This document shows positions 1 through 8,793 of a DNA stretch of 20,118 nucleotides, piece after piece (positions within the stretch are counted from its first letter, which is position 1; the number at the start of each line of letters is the position of its first letter). The translations under genes and the position numbers were made by a program. This DNA comes from a virus, in the IMG/VR virus record IMGVR_UViG_3300022188_000065, positions 1 through 20,118 of that record. One strand, given 5' to 3'. The notes beneath the pieces were generated by a model that had not been told where the DNA came from, ran no database searches, and worked only from the letters and a program-made list of their open reading frames with translations.

Positions 1-866
1 TTGTCAAGCTTGTCAATTAGATAAATATTTATCTCCCGAAGTAGCGAGTTTATGGTCGAGCGGTAATATATGAATTTTTTCAGAAGGTCGTCGGTCGGTT
101 CGGAATTATTCCTCAAAGCCGCCGCAATATCTACGATAGCGAGCAATGATTCGGCTGATTCGTTGAGGTAGGTTTTACATTTGAGCCTATGTGGACAAAA
201 AATACAATGAGCGCCCGCCACTTGCTCCGGATTATCGCTTTTTGCCCTTTCAATTGCGTGTATAACCTTATTATCGAAAAAATCCTTTATATCTTCAACC
301 TTGAATCTTGCCTCTTTAACCATTGGCGAAGTTTCGGGCTGGAATATAACAAGATTTACATATTCGGCGTCCGGGTTATATTCTGTAAGAGCCAAATAGC
401 CATATATTTTTAACTGCGAACTTGTAGGATCCACAGGAAACGAACCGCTTTTAAAGTCGATAACTTCTATTACGCTTCCGCTTACCACTACAGCGTCGGG
501 CGTGCCAAATATATCTCCTACCCCGATAGTCTTTTCAAGTATAATATTGTTCCTTTCCTTATTAATGTAGCGAGTTATCAATTGTGCGTATTTTTTAGCT
601 ATCAAAAGCTCTTCACTTGTGGGCTTTCGGAATTCGCCTTTTTTGCCGTCGAGTTCAAGTCTCATATTTTGGAGCGTAGGTATTATAGCTGGTTCTTTGC
701 CTTCTATCGCCAACTCCGCGGCTTTTTCGCAAAGAGTATGCAATGCGGTTCCCCGGTCGGCTTTTGTATGGTCGCCCCACGTCCGAAAACTTGAATCTTT
801 TACGGAATAAGGGCAATTAAGCCACCTATCCGCCCCGCTTGGTGAGAATTTACAATGTTTTTTCAT
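1..866 (-). CDS. DUF2800 family PD-(D/E)XK nuclease (partial, 3' end off window)
   Basis: An open frame of 288 codons starts at ATG 866 behind a strong AAAGGAG site and runs off the left edge without a stop. The N-terminus reads MKKHCKFSPSGADRWLNCPYS, the A-x-RW-x-x-CP entry motif of Cas4/RecB-like phage nucleases. It is followed by GTALH and a downstream acidic residue, then IFGTPDAVVV, then VIEVIDFKSG, which supply the D...D-x-K type catalytic core. CIFCPHRLKC near residue 245 resembles the cysteine cluster of this family. DUF2800 proteins are phage nucleases of unsettled role, probably in recombination or DNA processing, and usually sit with SNF2 helicase and methylase genes as here. This is the last visible gene of the leftward early operon. 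The family assignment is firm, the exact function is not. Confidence 0.85.
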   Translation of the reverse strand, partial: MKKHCKFSPSGADRWLNCPYSVKDSSFRTWGDHTKADRGTALHTLCEKAAELAIEGKEPAIIPTLQNMRLELDGKKGEFRKPTSEELLIAKKYAQLITRYINKERNNIILEKTIGVGDIFGTPDAVVVSGSVIEVIDFKSGSFPVDPTSSQLKIYGYLALTEYNPDAEYVNLVIFQPETSPMVKEARFKVEDIKDFFDNKVIHAIERAKSDNPEQVAGAHCIFCPHRLKCKTYLNESAESLLAIVDIAAALRNNSEPTDDLLKKFIYYRSTINSLLREINIYLIDKLD

Positions 867-916: not shown

Positions 917-1051
917 TCATAAAACTATTTTCCGATAATTGTCAACCAATTGTTTCAAATTTTTATTTTCTGCCTCAAGTTTTTTTATTTTTTCTTTAAG
1001 TTTTTCTTTTTCCCTTTCGAGTTTTTCAATCAATTCCAAGTGTTTCCTCAT
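917..1051 (-). CDS. Small coiled-coil protein, 44 aa
   Basis: The frame begins at ATG 1051 behind AAAGGAG, which lies inside the last codons of the methylase gene, and ends at TGA 917. The product is almost entirely charged heptads: EKLEREKEKLKEKIKKLEAE followed by NKNLKQLVDNYRK. This is a single parallel coiled coil of about five heptads with leucines at d positions and an asparagine in the core, like a basic-poor leucine zipper. No DNA-binding basic segment is obvious. It lies between methylase and DUF2800 genes in the same operon. It is below the usual gene-finder length cutoff, but the ribosome binding site and operon spacing (3 bp after the methylase stop) support it. Function is unknown; a dimerising partner or adaptor is possible. 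Confidence 0.6.
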   Translation of the reverse strand: MRKHLELIEKLEREKEKLKEKIKKLEAENKNLKQLVDNYRKIVL

Positions 1052-1054
1052 ACT

Positions 1055-1729
1055 CTACTCCTTTCCGCTCTTTTGAGCTTCAAACCTTTGCTTTATTATT
1101 TCGCAGTATTTTTTCTCGAGCTCAATCCCTATCCAACGTCGGCCGAGTTTCTCCGCGGCTAATAATGTAGTCCCACTGCCAGCGAATGGGTCGAGGATTG
1201 TTCCTTCGTATTCTTCTATAATTTCCGCCAATAAACTGATGGGTTTTTCAGCGATATGTGTCAATTTTGTAGGCGCTATTCGTCTATGGCGCAAAATATT
1301 TCCTTTATTTTTGCTTCTTAATACGCCTTTATTTTTTCCTTTAACGCCGTATAAAATGAATTCGTGATTAGGGCGCCAATTATAACCCATTCCGAACCAC
1401 ATTTTATCCCACACGAGGCAATTTTTTAAGGTATAATATTTTTTAAAAACGGGCATAATTTTATCAACTTCCGACCAACCAGCGAATAGATACAAAACAT
1501 CTGATAAATTCGCGGCAAGGGGTAAAAAATGCGAAATTATATCGACGTTTTCGTCGTTTGCTATTTTTATCCCGTTGAATTTACTTGTTTTCCGTTGGGC
1601 TTTTAGACTTATGCCGTAAGGTGGATCCGTTATTATTGCGTCTATGCTCTTATCTTTTAATTCAGCCATAATTTCGGGGCAATCCCCGCAATAGAGAGCT
1701 CCTAATTCCGTTTTAAAGTATTCTTTCAT
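1055..1729 (-). CDS. DNA methyltransferase of the N6-adenine/N4-cytosine type
   Basis: The 224-aa product carries TDPPYGI near residue 36 (catalytic motif IV, DPPY) and LDPFAGSGTTLLAAEKLGRR near residue 180 (AdoMet-binding motif I), followed by WIGIELEKKYCEI. Motif IV before motif I is the beta-class order seen in the N6_N4_Mtase family, which methylates the exocyclic amino group of A or C using AdoMet. The length suits a solitary phage methylase without a large recognition domain. No restriction endonuclease gene is next to it, so it is more likely to protect phage DNA from host enzymes or to mark DNA than to be half of a restriction system. Its ATG overlaps the stop of the upstream 54-codon gene (ATATGA), showing translational coupling. 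Target sequence cannot be read from the protein. Confidence 0.9.
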   Translation of the reverse strand: MKEYFKTELGALYCGDCPEIMAELKDKSIDAIITDPPYGISLKAQRKTSKFNGIKIANDENVDIISHFLPLAANLSDVLYLFAGWSEVDKIMPVFKKYYTLKNCLVWDKMWFGMGYNWRPNHEFILYGVKGKNKGVLRSKNKGNILRHRRIAPTKLTHIAEKPISLLAEIIEEYEGTILDPFAGSGTTLLAAEKLGRRWIGIELEKKYCEIIKQRFEAQKSGKE

Positions 1730-1890
1730 ATTTTACTCCTTTCTCTTAAAATTTTCGTTATTATTTGTCCGATTGTTTCGGCGTTAGCCTCACATTCGAA
1801 CTTTTCGCCATTAAAATATATTTCGGCTTTTAATTTTCCGTCGAAATTATCGAGCCACACGGTAAACTGGTATTTTTCATAAAGCCTCAT
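1726..1890 (-). CDS. Small protein, 54 aa, coupled to the methylase
   Basis: ATG 1890 lies seven bases after GGCGGAAAGGAG and the frame ends at TGA 1726-1728, overlapping the methylase start. The product begins MRLYEKYQFTVWLDNFDGKL and continues with a pattern of short beta strands (KAEIYFNGEKFECEANAETI) and a C-terminal helix GQIITKILRERSKI. It looks like a compact beta-beta-beta-alpha fold with no recognisable family. The last codons encode the ribosome binding site of the methylase. It is not recognised, but the overlap, ribosome binding site and protein-like composition make it a real gene. Confidence 0.65.
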   Translation of the reverse strand: MRLYEKYQFTVWLDNFDGKLKAEIYFNGEKFECEANAETIGQIITKILRERSKI

Positions 1891-1925: not shown

Positions 1926-3266
1926 TTATGCGACCGTATTTGTCAAGTATTTTCTATCGGATAAGCCTATAAATTTAAGGATATCCGCCTCTTTTCGATA
2001 CAACGCCTCAGCTACTTTCTCATCTATTGTTCCGGGTATTACAATATACTGAATTAAAACGTTATCTTTTTGCCCTATTCGGTGGATTCTATCTTCAGCT
2101 TGAAATACATTTGCCGGCGTCCAATCAAGCTCCGCAAATATGGCAATTCTTGCCCTCGTGAGCGTTATTCCCACGCCCGCCGCGGTTATACTTGCTACTA
2201 AAGCGTCTATTTTTCCGCCTTGAAACTTGTCGACAATAATTTGTTTTTCGTCCGAACTCATACCGCCATATAAAACGTCAGACGTGTAGCCTTTTTTGCG
2301 AATCTCCGCCGCTATTCGCTCAATAACGTTTCTATGGTGAGCGAATATAACGACAGGACGGCCATCGGATTCCATAACTTCTAAAACGTGCTCCACTACG
2401 GCTCCTGCCTTTGCCTCTCCGATAAGACGACGCAACGTTGCGAGCGGCATTTCCTCGTCGTCCGTGGCTTCTATTATGGCTTTGATTTGCGATTGTTTTA
2501 CGCTTGAAAGTGGGATTATTTGTATTGTTTTTTCGGGCAATTGTGTTAGAACTTCGCTTTTGAGCCTGCGAATAAATCCGACCCCTTTTAATCGCTCTAC
2601 CAGTTCGTCCTCGTGCTTAACGCCGTAATATTTGTCGACGTATTTTATTCGCCCGTTTCCAATATGGAGTTCCAATAAATCGTGATGAACATAACGGCGG
2701 CGGAAGTCGACATATTTCCCCAAAACGCCGATTTTTAGGGCGTTCGCCAATGGATAGACGTCTAACGCCGAGTTTTTGTAGGGCGTTCCCGTGATAAATA
2801 TTTTCGATTCTGCCTCTATTTTCTCTATGTTTCTATTTCCGAGGATGTATTGTGTGCGTTGTGCTTGCAAATTTTTGAGATAATGGGCCTCGTCGCAAAT
2901 TAGAACGCCCCATTTTTTCGAAGTTGTTATCCAGTGCATTGATTTAGCCTTCGCGTAATTCATAATAAGAATATTGGCGCCGAGCAAACGCCTTATCGCT
3001 TTATCACTTTTCGGGATTGACTTTGCCACTTCGATTTTCTTATTCGCAGCCCATTCTCCGCCCCACTTGACAACTTCTCGATACCAATTTATCAAAAGGT
3101 TAGCTGGACAAATGATAAGAACCGAGTCAGCGTTTTTCAAGCGACAAAACTCAATGGCTTGAACCGTTTTGCCGAGTCCCATTTCGTCGCCCAAAATTCC
3201 GCCGTTATACTTAATTAAATGAGCTACGCCTTCTTTTTGATATGGGAATAACTTTTCATTCATCAT
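1926..3266 (-). CDS. SNF2-family DNA helicase/translocase
   Basis: This 446-aa protein has a complete SNF2-type ATPase. Q-motif-like LFPYQKEGVAHL is at residue 6, motif I GDEMGLGKTVQAIE near 27, motif II LICDEAHYLKN near 122, and motif III ITGTPYKN near 158. Motifs V-VI, GVGITLTRARIAIF and AEDRIHRIGQKD, are near 365-400. It is the minimal two-RecA-domain form with no extra DNA-binding domain. Phage proteins of this family translocate on double-stranded DNA and are found with DUF2800 nucleases and primase-helicases, suggesting a role in replication or recombination. The first of two consecutive ATGs is chosen because GGGCGGAAAGGAG ends six bases before it. It shares the operon with the flanking small genes. 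Confidence 0.92.
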   Translation of the reverse strand: MMNEKLFPYQKEGVAHLIKYNGGILGDEMGLGKTVQAIEFCRLKNADSVLIICPANLLINWYREVVKWGGEWAANKKIEVAKSIPKSDKAIRRLLGANILIMNYAKAKSMHWITTSKKWGVLICDEAHYLKNLQAQRTQYILGNRNIEKIEAESKIFITGTPYKNSALDVYPLANALKIGVLGKYVDFRRRYVHHDLLELHIGNGRIKYVDKYYGVKHEDELVERLKGVGFIRRLKSEVLTQLPEKTIQIIPLSSVKQSQIKAIIEATDDEEMPLATLRRLIGEAKAGAVVEHVLEVMESDGRPVVIFAHHRNVIERIAAEIRKKGYTSDVLYGGMSSDEKQIIVDKFQGGKIDALVASITAAGVGITLTRARIAIFAELDWTPANVFQAEDRIHRIGQKDNVLIQYIVIPGTIDEKVAEALYRKEADILKFIGLSDRKYLTNTVA

Positions 3267-3272
3267 AACTTA

Positions 3273-3299
3273 CTCCTTTCCGCCCTTAAATTTCAAGGC
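3273..3299 (-). promoter_or_regulatory. Extended ribosome binding site of the SNF2 gene
   Basis: The minus strand reads AGCCTTGAAATTTAAGGGCGGAAAGGAG. The motif GGGCGGAAAGGAG (3285-3273) matches the one before the DUF2800 gene, and GCCTT upstream can fold with AAGGGC to hide the first part. The stem also encodes the last codons of the frameshifted gene upstream. Regulation by the candidate small RNA is inferred from complementarity only. Confidence 0.45.
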
Positions 3300-3504: not shown

Positions 3505-3717
3505 CTATATAACTTCGTCTAATTTGAGCAAATAAGCAGCGAGCATACCAATAGCCCACTTTGCCACGTGCTTACCGTTTCTTTCAAATTCAATCCAACC
3601 GCTATTGTGGCTTGTTCGATAAACTTTGCCGCCAATAGTGATTTTTAGCTTTTGTTGCGGTCGGCGGGTGCTTTCGATAATTGTCTCTTTCTCTTTGATT
3701 TTGTAGTAGATTCTCAT
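3505..3717 (-). CDS. Hypothetical protein, 70 aa
   Basis: The frame starts at ATG 3717, five bases after AGAAAGGAG. The product MRIYYKIKEKETIIESTRRP... is basic and has several short strands (KLKITIGGKVYRTSH, GWIEFERNGKHVAKWA) before a hydrophobic C-terminal helix, AIGMLAAYLLKLDEVI. The C-terminal helix is amphipathic rather than a clear membrane segment. I do not recognise a family. It lies within the run of small early genes between the 304-codon gene and the SNF2 helicase, behind the duplicated hairpin leader at 3724-3753. Small accessory proteins of this kind in phage early operons are often host-takeover factors, but nothing here shows that. Confidence 0.65.
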   Translation of the reverse strand: MRIYYKIKEKETIIESTRRPQQKLKITIGGKVYRTSHNSGWIEFERNGKHVAKWAIGMLAAYLLKLDEVI

Positions 3718-3723
3718 TTTAAA

Positions 3724-3753
3724 CTCCTTTCTGCCCGTCTGTGCGGGCCCTTT
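3724..3753 (-). repeat. Duplicated hairpin leader, copy 1
   Basis: A 30-bp segment that recurs at 4034-4063 with a single mismatch. On the minus strand it holds GGGCCCGCACAGACGGGC, a hairpin with stem GCCCG/CGGGC and loop CACAGA, and then CAGAAAGGAG, the ribosome binding site of the 70-aa gene. The stem takes up the first bases of the shared GGGCGG motif, so it could gate pairing there. Confidence 0.7.
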
Positions 3754-3807: not shown

Positions 3808-4026
3808 TTATTTCCACTCGCAAAAAGTCAAATCGCCGTGCTGATGGGTAAGAATATTTCTAAAAGTCTTTTCGGCTTCGTCTTTTTTGTCTGTTTTGAC
3901 GTCGATAGTATTCCTCTCTACAAATTTTAAGTTTTTATCGTCGTCTTGTTCATACCTTTTGAACTTAAATACCACCATTGCCTCATCTTTTAACAGAACT
4001 TTTTTGTAGATTATTACTTTTTTCAT
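3808..4026 (-). CDS. Hypothetical protein, 72 aa
   Basis: ATG 4026 stands seven bases after GGGCGGAAAGGAG. The product begins MKKVIIYKKVLLKDEAMVVF and is highly charged, with alternating strands (VVFKFKRYEQDDDKNLKFVE, NTIDVKTDKKDEAEKTF) and an end NILTHQHGDLTFCEWK. There is no signal peptide or membrane segment and no family I recognise. It sits between the GC-rich 304-codon gene and the 70-aa gene, each with its own hairpin leader. Base composition matches the other small early genes. Confidence 0.65.
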   Translation of the reverse strand: MKKVIIYKKVLLKDEAMVVFKFKRYEQDDDKNLKFVERNTIDVKTDKKDEAEKTFRNILTHQHGDLTFCEWK

Positions 4027-4033
4027 ATCGTTT

Positions 4034-4063
4034 CTCCTTTCCGCCCGTCTGTGCGGGCCCTTT
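4034..4063 (-). repeat. Duplicated hairpin leader, copy 2
   Basis: This copy matches 3724-3753 in 29 of 30 positions. It carries the same GCCCG-CACAGA-CGGGC hairpin followed by the full GGGCGGAAAGGAG ribosome binding site of the 72-aa gene. Two near-identical leaders in front of unrelated small genes suggest a mobile or copied expression element. Confidence 0.7.
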
Positions 4064-4092: not shown

Positions 4093-5007
4093 TTATCCCT
4101 TAACCTTAAATCCGTCGCAACCTACCGGGCGACCTTGCTCGTCGCGCACAAGGTTACCCGGTGCGATTACGTCCGGACGGTCGGTTGCCTCAAACACAAG
4201 CCCGGAAACGATGTATACAGTTCCGGGTTGCGGTTCTGGCAACCCCTCAACCGCGCCATATTTGGCACGATAAAGAGGTATGCCACCGTCCATATCGGCG
4301 ACTTTTTCATAGGTCACCGATACGCGGGCAACCGTTCCGGAAGGTTCAAATGTCCTTCCGGAGTTTACCTCTTTAATAGCGTGCGGGGTGAGATTTATCA
4401 TCTGCACGCTATCAGCCGGCTTCTCTTCCTCTTCTTCGGAAGTGGAAGCGTCGGCAACTTCCAGTTCTTCCGAGAGCTTGCCGGTGGACTTTCGATAGTA
4501 TCCAGCGTCCACACGGTCAAGCCCTATTTTTTTTGCCTTGCTTTCGAGTTCGTCGAAGGCAAGGCTGAGCTTTTTAGCAAACTCAACCAGCTGGTCGATT
4601 GCCTGCTGGTCGAGGTCGCAAGAGAATTCCTTGCCGTTGTCAACAGCGTCGGCGATGGCGCTGTCGATTTTTGCAAGAAGTTCTCTTGCAGTTTCTTGGG
4701 CTTGGCAGGTCATTTCGAACCAAGCCCAAAGCCCATTGGCAACCGCCTTTTCTTTGTCAGCGGTCGCCTTCCTGAGAAAGTAGGCGTCGTCCGGGTCTTC
4801 CGGGTCGCCTACCATATTTTCTACAACCCGGCGGCATTCGTTATACCACTTCGGGTCGTATTTAGCCAAAAAAGAAAGATAAGGATAAAACCCGAAGGTT
4901 TCCCTTATCTTCCTTTCTTTTTTGAGACTATCCGCTACCGCTTCGAGGTAGCGGATATCCCCATTATATACTCTTTCGTTTATTTCATCTTTATAAATAC
5001 CTTGCAT
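4093..5007 (-). CDS. Two-domain hypothetical protein, GC-rich, 304 aa
   Basis: The N-terminal part (about residues 1-195) is helical and acidic and is not recognised. An acid linker, STSEEEEEKPAD, leads to a C-terminal domain of about 100 residues starting VQMINLTPHAIKEVN, with SGTVARVSVTYEK, GLPEPQPGTVYIVSGLVFEA, RPDVIAPGNLVRDEQGRPVG. I know this last domain as a stand-alone small protein of phages and bacteria with no settled function, so here it appears as a fusion. By eye the gene is clearly richer in G+C (over 50% in stretches such as 4141-4200) than its neighbours (about 40%). Its ribosome binding site AAGGGGG differs from the early-gene motif, and it lies directly behind its own strong promoter (5051-5079). 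These are signs of later acquisition, like a moron gene. Confidence 0.8.
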   Translation of the reverse strand: MQGIYKDEINERVYNGDIRYLEAVADSLKKERKIRETFGFYPYLSFLAKYDPKWYNECRRVVENMVGDPEDPDDAYFLRKATADKEKAVANGLWAWFEMTCQAQETARELLAKIDSAIADAVDNGKEFSCDLDQQAIDQLVEFAKKLSLAFDELESKAKKIGLDRVDAGYYRKSTGKLSEELEVADASTSEEEEEKPADSVQMINLTPHAIKEVNSGRTFEPSGTVARVSVTYEKVADMDGGIPLYRAKYGAVEGLPEPQPGTVYIVSGLVFEATDRPDVIAPGNLVRDEQGRPVGCDGFKVKG

Positions 5008-5050: not shown

Positions 5051-5079
5051 ATTATACCATATTTTCGAATGAGAGTCAA
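5051..5079 (-). promoter_or_regulatory. Sigma70-type promoter of the distal early operon
   Basis: On the minus strand TTGACT (5079-5074), a 17-bp spacer ending in TGG (extended -10), and TATAAT (5056-5051). Transcription should start near 5044 and read into the 304-codon gene and, with no clear leftward terminator seen, the genes beyond. It lies just after the terminator of the primase gene. Confidence 0.85.
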
Positions 5080-5153: not shown

Positions 5154-7283
5154 TTATTCTGTTATCAATACATTTCTAAAATCTACGCCGTCTTTTTTCC
5201 TACGGCCGATTTTAGCTCCTTCAAATATCGACAAGAGCCTATTTTTGTATTCCTGCTTCGCTTTTCGTTTTTTAATCAACGCCATTTGCGTCTCTTTTTC
5301 CGATTCGTCGAGTTTTTCGCTTTCTATCAAGGAATCCACAAAAGCCTCGAACAATTCGAATATTAAAACCATTTCGTTATTTGCTACATATTCCTCGGAA
5401 AATTCTTTAAAATCCTCGAAAAATTCGTCGAATATGAATACTTCGTCCGCGGGGTCTACGTCCTTCATAATTCCGCGGCACTTGAGATAAAAAGACGATA
5501 TTTCCTTATTCTTATTTTCATATTTGCCTATATTTACGGAAACACGCTCGAACAATACATTTTCAAGGGTTATTGGTTCGTAGTTATCTTTTACGCAGGA
5601 CAACTTAAAATAATCTTTACTATTTATGCCCAACGCCGCCGCTTCTTTTTTCGTAAGTGATTCCAATACATACGCCCGCCGTGCGTTATCAATTAAAGCC
5701 GAGGCCCCTCTCGCAAGGTCTATAGTCTTTTTTCCTTTTGCATTCTTTGCGGCGTGATGTATTGAAATAATGGCGCAATTGGCCTCTTTTGCTATATATC
5801 GGAGTATTTTCGACAATTCGCCCATTGCCCCGTTGTCGTTTTCGTTGGCAGTGTGTAAATACTTGAGCGGGTCGAAAAATACGATTTTAATTTCATTTCT
5901 AACAAGCGAATCCAAAAGGCGATTAACTACCGCATAATCCACTTTATAGCCGCTCTTATCCGATTTTATCAAAGAAAACATATTAAGCTCATCTGTGCTT
6001 GAGAAAAACATATTTCGGCGTATTTTTTCTTTTATTTCGGCCGGCAATTCGTCGCCCCATACGCCCTTAAAAAGCGCTTGTAATCTTTGGCGTGTTCGGG
6101 CGGCGTCGTCTTCAATATTAGCAAGCCATACCCTTTGCCCGCCGTTTAATTCGTCGTTGCTAATAAAAGGTAAATCGTCGAAATTTTCGCCCGTGGCAAC
6201 CATAACGCCGAGATATAAAGAAAGAGCCGATTTTCCTATTCCGCCGCGGGAGCTAATTATTGTCAAATCCCCGTAGGACGCGAAAAAAGGCAGGACAACT
6301 TCGTATCTAAATTTTGTGTCGAATATTCCGAACTCGTCCGCTCCGAATATAAAAGATTCCTCGTTTTCTATGGCGTCAAATTCTATTTCGGGAATTATAT
6401 CTCTTATGGTTAGCCCGACGGACTTTTGCCCCGCGGCTTGCGAACGCGAGGACACAAGGGCAAGGCGGGATAATATTTTCTTATGGATTGACTCGGGCGT
6501 TAGCTCCCCGCTCGTATCGCCTTTGTCGCCTTTGTTTATATTGTTAATAAGCGTCTCCACTTCGCCCGGCGGCAGATAATCAAGCAAAGCGTCAATTAGC
6601 TCAATCGTATCATTGTTCCCGTGCCCCGTTCCGTGCTGCAAACTCTTTTCGGAATTCCTCATAAAAGCGTCGATTATAATATTAGCTTTTGCGAGGCCGT
6701 ATATTAGCTCCTCATTTGTCAATTTTGCTACTTTAAAGCCCTTGTATTTATCGTCTATCAATTCGTCGGGCAGAGTCTCGCGCTCCCTTGAAAATTCCAT
6801 AAGCCAATCGGGCGCCGTGGCTATTTCGTGGTCGTCAATAATTTTATACTCGGCGCCGTTCGGTGCTAAAACATAGCCCTTGAATTTCAAGTCGACGTCG
6901 TCAACAATTTGTTTCCGGAATTCAAGCGACTTCCAATCGGTCCCGCTCGGCAATCTAAAATAATAATGCCTTCCGCCCGTCTGGGTTTCGACCGTTAAAG
7001 TTTTTGGCAAGTGGTAGTTATTGGACTTAAGAAACAATTTAAAATTTTCAATGCCGTTTTTCTTTCCGTTTTTGTGGTCTACGTCGACAACGATTAAATT
7101 TTGATAAGCGCACGGCACCCCGAAAAATCGGCTCCCGCTCGCTTTCAAATCGCTCAAGTTATCAAGCCAGTTTTTTGGGTCAAGCCAGCTCCCTTTTACT
7201 TTCGGGCGCCTTGACTTGTCGGCGACAAATAGTTTTAATTTTTCTCTTTTAATTAGGATTTGTAATGATTCTTTTAGATTCAT
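5154..7283 (-). CDS. Bifunctional primase-polymerase / RepA-type replicative helicase
   Basis: The 709-aa protein joins two replication domains. Residues about 1-170 form a prim-pol domain: LIVVDVDHKNGKKNG supplies the metal-binding D-x-D, and TVETQTGGRHYYFRLP the conserved GGRHYYF strand. Residues about 320-560 form a RepA/KaiC-like ATPase. Walker A is SSRGGIGKSALSLYLG, then WLANIEDDAARTRQRLQAL, Walker B IKIVFFDPLKYL, and the strand CAIISIHHAAKN. A charged C-terminal tail of about 130 residues follows. Such proteins prime and unwind at the phage origin, so this gene is the likely initiator for the GGCGWCAA cluster just upstream. It is transcribed alone, from the promoter at 7333-7360 to the terminator at 5088-5126. 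Its start at ATG 7283 is fixed by AAAGGAG eight bases before it. Confidence 0.9.
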   Translation of the reverse strand: MNLKESLQILIKREKLKLFVADKSRRPKVKGSWLDPKNWLDNLSDLKASGSRFFGVPCAYQNLIVVDVDHKNGKKNGIENFKLFLKSNNYHLPKTLTVETQTGGRHYYFRLPSGTDWKSLEFRKQIVDDVDLKFKGYVLAPNGAEYKIIDDHEIATAPDWLMEFSRERETLPDELIDDKYKGFKVAKLTNEELIYGLAKANIIIDAFMRNSEKSLQHGTGHGNNDTIELIDALLDYLPPGEVETLINNINKGDKGDTSGELTPESIHKKILSRLALVSSRSQAAGQKSVGLTIRDIIPEIEFDAIENEESFIFGADEFGIFDTKFRYEVVLPFFASYGDLTIISSRGGIGKSALSLYLGVMVATGENFDDLPFISNDELNGGQRVWLANIEDDAARTRQRLQALFKGVWGDELPAEIKEKIRRNMFFSSTDELNMFSLIKSDKSGYKVDYAVVNRLLDSLVRNEIKIVFFDPLKYLHTANENDNGAMGELSKILRYIAKEANCAIISIHHAAKNAKGKKTIDLARGASALIDNARRAYVLESLTKKEAAALGINSKDYFKLSCVKDNYEPITLENVLFERVSVNIGKYENKNKEISSFYLKCRGIMKDVDPADEVFIFDEFFEDFKEFSEEYVANNEMVLIFELFEAFVDSLIESEKLDESEKETQMALIKKRKAKQEYKNRLLSIFEGAKIGRRKKDGVDFRNVLITE

Positions 7284-7326
7284 ACGCGTTCTCCTTTATC
7301 AAGTTTTTAGGACTTCGTCCGCCCTT
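7284..7326 (-). promoter_or_regulatory. Leader of the primase-helicase gene with two small-RNA target blocks
   Basis: From the predicted start site the leader reads TTTAAGGGCGGACGAAGTCC and then AAAAACTTGATAAAGGAGAACGCGT before the ATG. GGAC-GAA-GTCC can form a small hairpin. AAGGAGAACGC (7296-7286), which includes the ribosome binding site, is perfectly complementary to 8035-8045 of the candidate small RNA. AGGGCGGA (7325-7318) is complementary to 8058-8065 of the same RNA, in the collinear antiparallel order. Confidence 0.55.
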
Positions 7327-7332
7327 AAATTC

Positions 7333-7360
7333 ATTATACCAAATTAAAACAAAAAATCAA
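7333..7360 (-). promoter_or_regulatory. Promoter of the primase-helicase gene
   Basis: On the minus strand TTGATT (7360-7355), a 16-bp spacer ending TGG, and TATAAT (7338-7333). The start would be near 7326, giving a leader of about 43 nt. One GGCGTCAA word begins at 7361, directly abutting the -35 box, so a protein bound there could also regulate this promoter. Confidence 0.8.
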
Positions 7361-7769
7361 GGCGTCAATTTTAAAATTTTTTTGTCGCCTTTTTGACGCC
7401 TTTTTAAAATTCGATTGCGGGACAAATAAATATAACGGCGTCAAATAGGTTTTTGGAATTTTTTAAGGCGACAAGTAGTATTTATTTGCGACACAATGAA
7501 ATACAAAGACAAAATCAAGGCGGCGACAATTATTTTTCCTATATATATATATTTTTGACGCCACCTTCTCGGAGTCGAAATGGGCTGTAAAGTAATTCGC
7601 CTCTCCACAAAAAACCCCGTAAATCCTTTAGGGATTTTACGGGGATTTTTTGAGATTCGGCGATTACTAACAGCCATTAAGCCAAGCCACAAGCCCACAA
7701 ATTTGGCGCCCCTTATATAAATAAGCTTGTTAGAAAGATAAACCCACCTGACGCCGAGTTTTTGTCGCC
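7361..7769. repeat. GGCGWCAA word cluster, candidate replication origin/iterons
   Basis: Perfect GGCGTCAA or GGCGACAA words occur at 7361-7368, 7437-7444, 7467-7474 and 7522-7529 (plus orientation) and at 7382-7389, 7393-7400, 7555-7562 and 7762-7769 (minus orientation). A one-off copy, CTGACGCC, is at 7748-7755, and weaker ones are near 7418 and 7486. The stretch contains no gene I can support. It includes the palindrome AATTTTAAAATT near 7367 and the AT tract TATATATATATAT at 7540-7552, which could be an unwinding element. Repeated short words plus an AT-rich tract beside an initiator-type primase gene is the classic layout of an iteron origin. A set of operator sites for a regulator is the alternative. 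Confidence 0.55.
7611..7651. terminator. Strong bidirectional terminator
   Basis: CCCCGTAAATCC (7615-7626) pairs with GGATTTTACGGGG (7632-7644) with a single bulged base. The stem is flanked by AAAAAA on the left and ATTTTTT on the right, so it can act in both directions. It isolates the origin-like cluster and primase unit from the duplicated control units to the right. Confidence 0.85.
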
Positions 7770-7828
7770 TTTAAGTAGGTTTGTTCGTTATTTGCGCATT
7801 CGCGCCCTTATATAATAAGTTTATCTTT
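7706..7828. repeat. Paired direct and inverted repeats in the control region
   Basis: GCGCCCCTTATATAAATAAG (near 7706) and GCGCCCTTATATAATAAG (near 7803) are near-identical direct repeats about 96 bp apart. AAAGATAAAC (7734-7743) and GTTTATCTTT (7819-7828) form a perfect 10-bp inverted repeat, with partial extension AAACCCAC/GTAGGTTT inside. This could be an operator pair or part of the origin. No gene is supported here. Confidence 0.5.
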
Positions 7829-7831
7829 GTG

Positions 7832-7929
7832 TTTTTAGTGGTTATTCGCCCGTCAGAATGGTTTTTATAGGCTGGGTAGTATAATTTATCATCTCGGCTT
7901 TTAAAAATGCGTTAGAGAGGCTAATATGG
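7832..7929 (+). repeat. 98-bp direct repeat, copy 1
   Basis: This segment recurs at 8163-8260 with seven substitutions and no gaps. It contains TATAAT at 7880-7885 without a good -35 box, so any promoter here would need an activator. It ends with GAGAGG, five spacer bases and ATGG, so a ribosome binding site and start codon are part of the repeat. The GCC...GGC pairing around 7848-7873 is extended to GCCC...GGGC in copy 2, a hint of conserved RNA structure. Confidence 0.85.
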
Positions 7930-7997
7930 GCTTAACTAACTTTTGCTACATTCCGCACCTTCTTTTTTTATTGAACCCCTTGACCCTGCCCTTTTAA
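7926..7997 (+). CDS. Possible leader peptide, 23 aa
   Basis: ATG 7926 is five bases after GAGAGG, which belongs to the 98-bp repeat. The frame, MGLTNFCYIPHLLFLLNPLT plus LPF, ends at TAA 7995-7997, inside the spacer of the small-RNA promoter. The peptide is hydrophobic. The other repeat copy has a start in the same place but an unrelated peptide. It may be a leader peptide, a tiny membrane peptide or chance; the conserved start is the only support. Confidence 0.3.
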   Translation: MGLTNFCYIPHLLFLLNPLTLPF

Positions 7998-8008
7998 TTT
8001 GGTATAAT
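7980..8008 (+). promoter_or_regulatory. Promoter of candidate small RNA 1
   Basis: TTGACC (7980-7985), a 17-bp spacer ending in TGG, and TATAAT (8003-8008) give a near-consensus extended -10 promoter pointing right. The start is expected near 8015, only about 70 bases before a terminator and with no open frame of note behind it, so its product should be a short RNA. Confidence 0.88.
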
Positions 8009-8014
8009 ATAACA

Positions 8015-8084
8015 AAGGCCCCGAATATAAAAGAGCGTTCTCCTTCAAAAGCTCTTTTCCGCCCTAACAACTCGGGGTCTTTTT
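8015..8084 (+). ncRNA. Candidate small regulatory RNA 1 (anti early-gene leaders)
   Basis: About 70 nt from the predicted start to a T5 run. The ends GGCCCCGA (8017-8024) and TCGGGGTC (8072-8079) pair over 8 bp and, with the T-run at 8080-8084, serve as terminator. Inside, AAAAGAGC (8029-8036) and GCTCTTTT (8051-8058) form a perfect 8-bp stem with a 14-nt loop containing TTCTCCTTC, an anti-Shine-Dalgarno sequence; CCGCCCTAACAAC is left single-stranded. GCGTTCTCCTT (8035-8045) is perfectly complementary to the primase-gene ribosome binding site. TCCGCCCT (8058-8065) pairs with a second block of that leader. CTCTTTTCCGCCCT (8052-8065) can pair, with one G-U, with the AGGGCGGAAAGGAG motif of the other early genes. 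Promoter, terminator and fold are seen; repression of the early operon is inferred. Confidence 0.7.
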
Positions 8085-8122
8085 AAACGGATTCGTCCAT
8101 TTTTTTAGTTCATTCATCATTT

Positions 8123-8159
8123 GCCCGCTTGTATTTCGATACGGCGGGCTTTTCTTTTT
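8123..8159 (+). terminator. Rightward terminator with UUCG loop
   Basis: GCCCGC (8123-8128) pairs with GCGGGC (8144-8149). Inside, GTAT (8131-8134) pairs with ATAC (8139-8142) around a TTCG tetraloop, and TTTTCTTTTT follows. It is a backup stop after small RNA 1 and insulates the second control unit. Confidence 0.85.
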
Positions 8160-8162
8160 GCA

Positions 8163-8260
8163 TTTTTAGTGGTTATTCGCCCCGTAGAATGGTTTTTAAG
8201 GGCTGGGTAGTATAATTTATCATCTCGGCTTTTAAAAATGCGTTAGAGAGGCTGTTATGG
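8163..8260 (+). repeat. 98-bp direct repeat, copy 2
   Basis: The second copy of the repeat at 7832-7929, offset by 331 bp and 91 of 98 positions identical. It has TATAAT at 8211-8216 and again ends in GAGAGG, five spacer bases and ATGG. What follows each copy (short frame, strong promoter, terminated RNA) is alike in layout but different in sequence. Confidence 0.85.
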
Positions 8261-8415
8261 ATTTTAGGATTTTATTTGATTTTTCATTCCGAGTTAGTTA
8301 TAATTATTACAAGGTCCACGACGGGGTCTCTTTTCGGCTACTTGGGCTCGGATTGCTTAAATTCGGGCCCATTTTTTATTTGATTTTTCGCTTGTTATAT
8401 GGTATAATTATTTGA
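8257..8415 (+). CDS. Possible small hydrophobic peptide, 52 aa
   Basis: ATG 8257 is provided by the repeat and preceded by GAGAGG. The frame, MDFRILFDFSFRVSYNYYKV then HDGVSFRLLGLGLLKFGPIF then YLIFRLLYGIII, ends at TGA 8413-8415. The last 25 residues are strongly hydrophobic and could span a membrane. It runs through the promoter and terminator of candidate small RNA 2, so transcription from the repeat would have to pass that terminator. It may be an accidental frame. Confidence 0.25.
   Translation: MDFRILFDFSFRVSYNYYKVHDGVSFRLLGLGLLKFGPIFYLIFRLLYGIII
8276..8304 (+). promoter_or_regulatory. Promoter of candidate small RNA 2
   Basis: TTGATT (8276-8281), a 17-bp spacer, and TATAAT (8299-8304). 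The start is expected near 8311. As with small RNA 1 the transcript would begin AAGG or AAAGG, and it meets a strong terminator about 65 bases on. Confidence 0.8.
8311..8377 (+). ncRNA. Candidate small regulatory RNA 2 (anti late-operon ribosome binding site)
   Basis: About 67 nt. The 3' half is a terminator: TGGGCTCGGATT (8343-8354), loop GCTTA, AATTCGGGCCCA (8360-8371), a 12-bp stem with two G-U pairs, then T6. The 5' half holds CTCTTTTCGGCTA (8328-8340). This can pair over 13 consecutive positions (one G-U) with TAGCCGAAAGGAG (8420-8432), the ribosome binding site of the first late gene. It shares the CUCUUUUC core with small RNA 1, with the same C-to-U change that turns a G-C into a G-U pair. 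It may act as a free RNA. If the terminator is read through, it would hide the downstream ribosome binding site in cis, so only transcripts from the next promoter would be translated well. Confidence 0.6.
8380..8408 (+). promoter_or_regulatory. Promoter of the late operon
   Basis: TTGATT (8380-8385), a 17-bp spacer ending TGG, and TATAAT (8403-8408). The start is near 8415, giving a leader of about 28 nt whose ribosome binding site is the target of the anti segment in small RNA 2. It lies immediately after that RNA's terminator. Confidence 0.85.
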
Positions 8416-8442
8416 ACGATAGCCGAAAGGAGCGTTTTTTAT

Positions 8443-8793
8443 ATGGGAAAAATGAGCAAAAATAAAGGTAAACGAGGCGAGCGAGAAGTGGCGAAAATAC
8501 TAACGGCCGCGGGTTTTTCGGCCCGTCGCGGCGTTCAATACAAAGGCACGCCCGATAGTCCCGACGTTATAGCCGAAAATTTGCCTATTCCGTGCCATTT
8601 TGAAGTTAAAAGGACGGAAACTTTATCTATTTATAAAGCCTACGAACAAGCGAAAAGCGATTCAGGCGCAGATGAAATGCCGATAGTATGCCACAGGCGC
8701 AATCGGCAACCTTGGCTCGTGATATTTTCGTTCGGTGATTTTATAAACCTTTTGAAATATATTGAAACCTTGGAGAAGGAGCGAAAAAAATGA
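8443..8793 (+). CDS. Holliday-junction-resolvase-like PD-(D/E)XK nuclease
   Basis: This 116-aa protein has the small resolvase layout: basic N-terminus NKGKRGEREVAKILTAAGFS with the first acidic residue, then GTPDSPDV (the D) and HFEVKRTET (E-x-K), then a helix with YKAYEQAKSD and a last strand PWLVIF. Phage enzymes of this type cleave branched DNA and often stand beside terminase genes, where they may clear replication intermediates before packaging. The start at 8443 is chosen over ATG 8452 because GAAAGGAG lies ten bases upstream. The stop overlaps the next start (ATGA). It is the first gene of the late operon. Confidence 0.78.
   Translation: MGKMSKNKGKRGEREVAKILTAAGFSARRGVQYKGTPDSPDVIAENLPIPCHFEVKRTETLSIYKAYEQAKSDSGADEMPIVCHRRNRQPWLVIFSFGDFINLLKYIETLEKERKK

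Follow-up and report, generated by a model that had tools for sequence, protein, structure and literature searches.

A predicted phage small RNA appears to match the ribosome binding sites of at least seven early, mostly DNA-replication, genes and of no structural gene

The 70 nucleotides at 8015–8084 of virus record IMGVR_UViG_3300022188_000065, whose 20,118 bases are the whole stretch of DNA analyzed here (the window), probably encode a stand-alone phage small RNA (sRNA) that targets, in trans, early (replication and recombination) mRNAs of the same phage. Judged from its sequence, the predicted sRNA appears to match the ribosome sites of at least seven early genes, most of them concerned with DNA replication, and of no structural gene. 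Since it matches many early ribosome sites, one RNA could switch off the early program, and since the matched element is common to the early/replication module, the locus has the look of a translational brake on a whole regulon, not of an antisense RNA with a single target. The original prediction had proposed an antisense-type brake on replication initiation. Pairing with the primase leader across the ribosome binding site is borne out by sequence, by energy, and by comparison with shuffled controls. Primase is nevertheless only one among seven or more predicted targets, and others pair more strongly; slowing replication initiation would be only part of what the predicted sRNA does. The promoter, the fold, the complementarity, the strand bias, and the statistical excess are described below as they stand in the DNA.

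The sRNA locus sits between two divergent gene arms. The minus-strand arm runs from 7283 down to 3 and carries a Prim-Pol/DnaB-like primase-helicase, an SNF2 helicase, a DNA methyltransferase, a DUF2800/PD-(D/E)XK nuclease, and several small genes, and the plus-strand arm, from 8443 upward, carries a RusA-like resolvase, a terminase, a portal, a protease, and a major head protein. Following established phage biology, we take the minus-strand arm to be early and the plus-strand arm to be mostly late. The primase-helicase gene (5154..7283, minus strand) matches Prim-Pol, AAA_25, and DnaB_C in Pfam and primase/helicase in PHROG. Gene starts were set by eye from the open reading frames and the position of the Shine-Dalgarno sequence.

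A near-consensus sigma-70/A-type promoter, as had been claimed, lies at 7980–8008 on the plus strand (TTGACC-17-TATAAT with an extended −10 TGG, 11/12), and it is the second-best plus-strand promoter match in the window. Its last 17 bases, spanning spacer and −10 box, form a 17-mer, TTTTAATTTGGTATAAT, that is identical in the primase promoter on the opposite strand (7333–7360, minus strand, TTGATT-16-TATAAT), with no other exact copy in the window. The predicted start, 7 nt downstream of the promoter, gives an RNA of 70 nt up to a T5 run (8015–8084, plus strand). Of the fold originally described, the 8-bp inner stem, the 14-nt loop, and the T5 run are as stated, but the outer stem has 10 bp including one G-U and not 8 bp. 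Also present, and absent from that description, is a 13-nt single-stranded stretch at 8059–8071, between the stems on the 3′ side. The predicted free energy is −21.9 kcal/mol, compared with −12.3 ± 2.5 kcal/mol for dinucleotide shuffles (z −3.86; none of 200 as good). The loop (8037–8050) and the 3′ stretch have hardly any pairing, and opening either one costs 0.2 kcal/mol, so that the RNA combines a stable fold with exposed seeds. The closing stem and T5 run are present at the RNA's end, but this stem is atypical as a terminator because it encloses the inner hairpin, and a terminator scan with loops of 3–8 finds only a weaker 5-bp alternative there. The possibility that the locus is the leader of an overlooked minus-strand gene was considered and rejected, there being no open reading frame. 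The sRNA gene is flanked by a 110-nt direct repeat, 90% identical, at 7820–7929 and 8151–8260. Both copies contain a TATAAT-like box, and at the end of each stand a Shine-Dalgarno-like stretch and the start codon of a short open reading frame; the part of the repeat that was folded has no structure above chance.

Two parts of the RNA are candidate seeds. The main targeting element, or 3′ seed, is GCUCUUUUCCGCCCU (8051–8065, plus strand), of which 8059–8065 form an unpaired toehold and 8051–8058 lie in the inner stem; the other is the loop seed, GUUCUCCUUCAAAA (8037–8050, plus strand). The 3′ seed is the complement of an element, (A)GGGCGGA-AAGGAG, that is common to the leaders of the minus-strand early/replication genes and in which, by alignment, GGGCGGA is followed directly by AAGGAG. 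Of eight early leaders that were aligned, seven conform to this element, primase included, and the eighth (gene 1729) retains only its Shine-Dalgarno part. When the sRNA was tested against every gene start in the window, the 3′ seed fitted other early leaders better than that of primase. The longest uninterrupted helices over a Shine-Dalgarno sequence, 15 bp each, are formed with AGGGCGGAAAGGAGT in the leaders of the nuclease gene 866..3, which runs off the window (site 872–886), and of the SNF2 helicase gene 3266..1926 (site 3272–3286), the latter with the strongest gain on cofolding, −12.9 kcal/mol. Further helices, all on the minus strand like the foregoing, are 14 bp at GGCGGAAAGGAGCT (1895–1908, 54-aa gene 1890..1726), 13 bp at GGGCGGAAAGGAG (4034–4046, 72-aa gene 4026..3808), and 12 bp at GCGGAAAGGAGT (1057–1068, 44-aa gene 1051..917, inside the 3′ end of the methyltransferase gene). 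The cofold gain at gene 1890 is only −0.5, so this site is occluded in the model. The 70-aa gene 3717..3505 (minus strand) adds a 13-mer with one mismatch, GGGCAGAAAGGAG (3724–3736), with a cofold gain of −9.5 kcal/mol. The leaders of genes 3717 and 4026 are near-duplicates, and so these two sites are not independent. Just upstream of their Shine-Dalgarno sequences, at 3733–3748 and 4043–4058, both share the hairpin GCCCGCACAGACGGGC, which read on the plus strand is followed by T and is terminator-like. The minus-strand genes 1729 (methyltransferase), 3490, and 5007 have no match beyond chance. The last of these, a 304-aa gene (5007..4093) belonging to PHROGs of unknown function, has a leader that lacks the shared element and a promoter of its own at 5051–5079 (TTGACT-17-TATAAT with TG).

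AAGGAG is an ordinary Shine-Dalgarno sequence, and part of each match is therefore shared with ribosome binding. The mean ungapped helix energy over the 10 minus-strand leaders is −21.5 kcal/mol, against −13.0 ± 1.2 for dinucleotide-shuffled sRNAs (none of 200 as good), and over the 19 plus-strand leaders it is −13.1 against −12.5, which is chance. With the anti-Shine-Dalgarno cores held fixed and the rest shuffled, the early score was reached in 0 of 2000 trials and the late score in 143 of 2000, so the signal exceeds generic Shine-Dalgarno pairing. Six of the 10 early leaders do better than −20 kcal/mol, and none of the 19 late leaders does (Fisher p = 4e-4). Cofolding, in which the cost of opening both RNAs is charged, gives an early mean gain of −4.8 compared with −0.64 ± 0.63 when only unpaired letters are shuffled and the stems are kept (0/500), and −0.5, or chance, for the late leaders. 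Ranked among 36,500 windows of 70 nt, leaving out those antisense to the leaders, which otherwise dominate, the sRNA locus comes first at −21.5, with the next at −16.7 (mean −10.95, sd 1.55). Within the window, complements of the 15-mer seed with up to three mismatches are confined to five early leaders and the sRNA, six found where 0.86 are expected (0/100 shuffles). The complementarity is imperfect, spread over several mRNAs at the ribosome binding site, and above chance. A screen across other phages gave top-six scores of −19 to −22 in GC-matched phages, compared with −24.3 at the sRNA locus; this margin is smaller than the one over shuffles, and the excess still holds. One record of 62% GC exceeds the score of the sRNA locus, as expected for GC-rich sequence, and the screen is only supportive because its gene caller was crude and missed gene 866.

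The primase leader was the target originally singled out, and the pairing described there is exact. GCGTTCTCCTT (8035–8045) is the perfect complement of the primase Shine-Dalgarno region, AAGGAGAACGC (7286–7296, minus strand; gene 7283..5154), and TCCGCCCT (8058–8065) that of AGGGCGGA (7318–7325, minus strand), where the primase mRNA is predicted to begin. The two blocks are collinear and in the right order for pairing by both coordinates and sequence. The duplex of sRNA and primase leader reaches −36.9 kcal/mol, a value that 3 in 2000 shuffles match, whether it is the sRNA or the leader that is shuffled, so that the pairing is better than shuffled, as had been asked of it. The 11-bp helix that the loop seed forms here together with 8035–8036 has an energy of −21.6 kcal/mol, reached by 5 of 2000 shuffles with the anti-Shine-Dalgarno cores fixed, and the cofold gain at primase is −4.6. 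Alignment accounts for the arrangement: the primase leader is the shared element ATTTAAGGGCGGA, 13 nt of which are identical in the SNF2 leader, split by a 21-nt insert, and two collinear blocks are seen at primase because the element is split there. The second block, taken as specific to primase, is exact there but fits most of the other early-gene leaders better, and what the hairpin loop supplies at the primase leader is an added 11-bp match.

From these features we infer expression of the RNA, pairing with its targets in the cell, and their repression as a result. In the mechanism we propose, the unpaired CCGCCCU of the sRNA would serve as a toehold for GGGCGGA in the leaders; branch migration would then free 8051–8058 from the inner stem, and the helix would grow to 12–15 bp across the Shine-Dalgarno sequence. 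Opening the 15-nt site costs 8.6 kcal/mol, against −30.5 kcal/mol for the helix. The C- and U-rich hairpin loop would be a second seed, for pairing with the primase leader. With the Shine-Dalgarno sequence occupied, the 30S subunit would be kept off, perhaps with decay of the mRNA, and translation of the nuclease, the SNF2 helicase, the primase-helicase, and the small early genes would fall together, sparing the structural genes. The timing may be that of an early-to-late shut-off or of a feedback or delayed brake; with a promoter of the primase type, the sRNA would accumulate alongside the mRNAs that it later silences. A more ambitious proposal, which we hold to be about evenly balanced, is that one two-seed 70-nt RNA and a 13-nt RNA operator over the Shine-Dalgarno sequence of most early replication genes form a co-evolved regulon, an RNA-only early-to-late translational switch and counterpart of RegA. 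If true, base pairing between a seed and a leader element repeated through the phage's own replication module could run the early-to-late switch, and other phages could be searched by a simple rule: take the element that early leaders share and look for its reverse complement inside a promoter-terminator unit. Phage sRNAs that act on phage genes are mostly single-target cis-antisense RNAs, or act in trans on host or single phage targets.

Several other readings of the same features were weighed. The sRNA could be a brake on primase alone, the other leader matches being a by-product of a common Shine-Dalgarno context. Only primase combines the 11-bp loop-seed match with a second block (−36.9), and its promoter shares 17 identical bases with that of the sRNA, yet pairing is equally good or better at other leaders (as many as 15 bp without a break; cofold −12.9 against −4.6 for primase), and the match runs into GGGC, which is more than a Shine-Dalgarno sequence requires and which the late leaders lack. 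We therefore consider it very unlikely that primase is the only target. Another reading is a general anti-Shine-Dalgarno RNA that lowers host translation broadly and fits the early leaders incidentally. The loop UUCUCCUUC and CUCUUUUC do match generic Shine-Dalgarno sequences, but the 19 plus-strand leaders, most of which have a Shine-Dalgarno sequence, are at chance, and specificity derives from CCGCCC; a general effect of this kind is highly improbable.

The leader element might instead serve another end, as a strong phage-preferred Shine-Dalgarno context or the site of a repressor protein, with 8015–8084 a decayed inverted leader copy that has no RNA function. The minus strand of the locus does read AGGGCGGAAAAGAG and then GAAGGAGAACGC, in the order of the primase leader. 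Behind it, however, no minus-strand open reading frame lies in register, an extended −10 promoter scoring 11/12 is suitably spaced on the plus strand, the plus-strand fold is more stable (z −3.9) than the minus-strand fold (−1.9), and the bases of the seeds that make the complementarity lie in unpaired parts, so that such a relic is unlikely. It is also conceivable, but quite unlikely, that the RNA confers immunity, expressed in a lysogen or a carrier state to silence the early genes of resident and superinfecting phages in the manner of the P4 CI and P1 C4 RNAs. Those RNAs silence early genes and are processed from the leader that they regulate. The predicted targets are the early replication genes, and a host-type promoter could work without phage factors; against this, no integrase or repressor gene was recognized in the families scanned (a 20-kb fragment and part of its open reading frames), and the predicted sRNA is stand-alone where P4 CI and P1 C4 are leader-processed.

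As a trans-acting sRNA on the phage's own early mRNAs, the reading we prefer, the locus resembles several known regulators in part. The closest in role, coordinated shut-off at translation initiation regions, is RegA of phage T4. On about 30 phage mRNAs of the early and middle classes, this 122-aa protein competes with ribosomes for the initiation region, recognizing AU-rich sites near the AUG (PMC3014915). RegA is a protein, unlike the repressor proposed here, a 70-nt RNA base-pairing with a GGGCGGA-AAGGAG element. In chemistry, the C-rich single-stranded seeds recall Gram-positive C-rich sRNAs that occlude Shine-Dalgarno sequences. IsrR of S. aureus, which is chromosomal and iron-controlled, has several such seeds, of which some sit in loops and one lies directly beside a stem, and they pair in trans with the Shine-Dalgarno regions of several mRNAs (PMC9410917). 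Unlike IsrR, the predicted sRNA is phage-encoded and no Rfam family matches it. Among phage RNAs covered in the part of PMC12197685 drawn on here, sar of P22 and OOP and aQ of lambda are short, cis-antisense to one target, and block its expression; the predicted sRNA is likewise a short phage RNA complementary to phage mRNA, but is encoded about 0.7–7 kb away from its targets and fits several. The same part of that source describes VpdS (VP882), PreS (lambda), and 24B_1 as Hfq-linked and acting on host genes or the lysogeny switch, VpdS on both phage and host mRNAs, and these share with the predicted sRNA action beyond their own locus. No phage sRNA pairing with an element shared across its phage's own replication genes is described in that part of PMC12197685, and the literature searched comprised open papers. 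The original prediction compared the RNA with plasmid copy-number RNAs, though encoded away from its target; it lies about 690 nt from the primase leader. Plasmid copy-number antisense RNAs are cis-encoded and fully complementary, whereas the predicted sRNA is trans-encoded, has two seeds, and pairs with primase in blocks of 11 and 8 bp, and in those respects the comparison fails.

In the collections searched, the primase, terminase, capsid, and DUF2800 proteins have distant relatives only, at about 20–33% identity; none was found for the RusA protein, nor for DUF2800 in viral contigs, and a DNA search of phages gave no match. In two capsid relatives (L026 and L029), no similar sequence was seen in the first part. 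Of the exact 24-nt sRNA, 18-nt leader, and two-block patterns sought in viral or genome contigs, three were without match, and the 31 matches to the loosest pattern were judged from context to be chance, lacking the promoter-hairpin arrangement. No relative carrying the element or the RNA was found in the viral, phage, or genome collections searched. Rfam at the gathering threshold had no match in the window, and a relaxed search of 7280–8460 returned nothing at the sRNA locus and only sub-threshold matches at 7602–7658. The strong inverted repeat at 7609–7650, AAAAAACCCCGTAAA / TTTACGGGGATTTTT, bordered by runs of A and T, is probably a bidirectional terminator between the two arms. The roughly 400 bases upstream of the primase gene (7361–7769) also hold nine copies, on both strands and with 0–1 mismatch, of TTTG(A/T)CGCC, a motif found 32 times in the window where 12 are expected, and these copies look like replication-origin iterons or operators.
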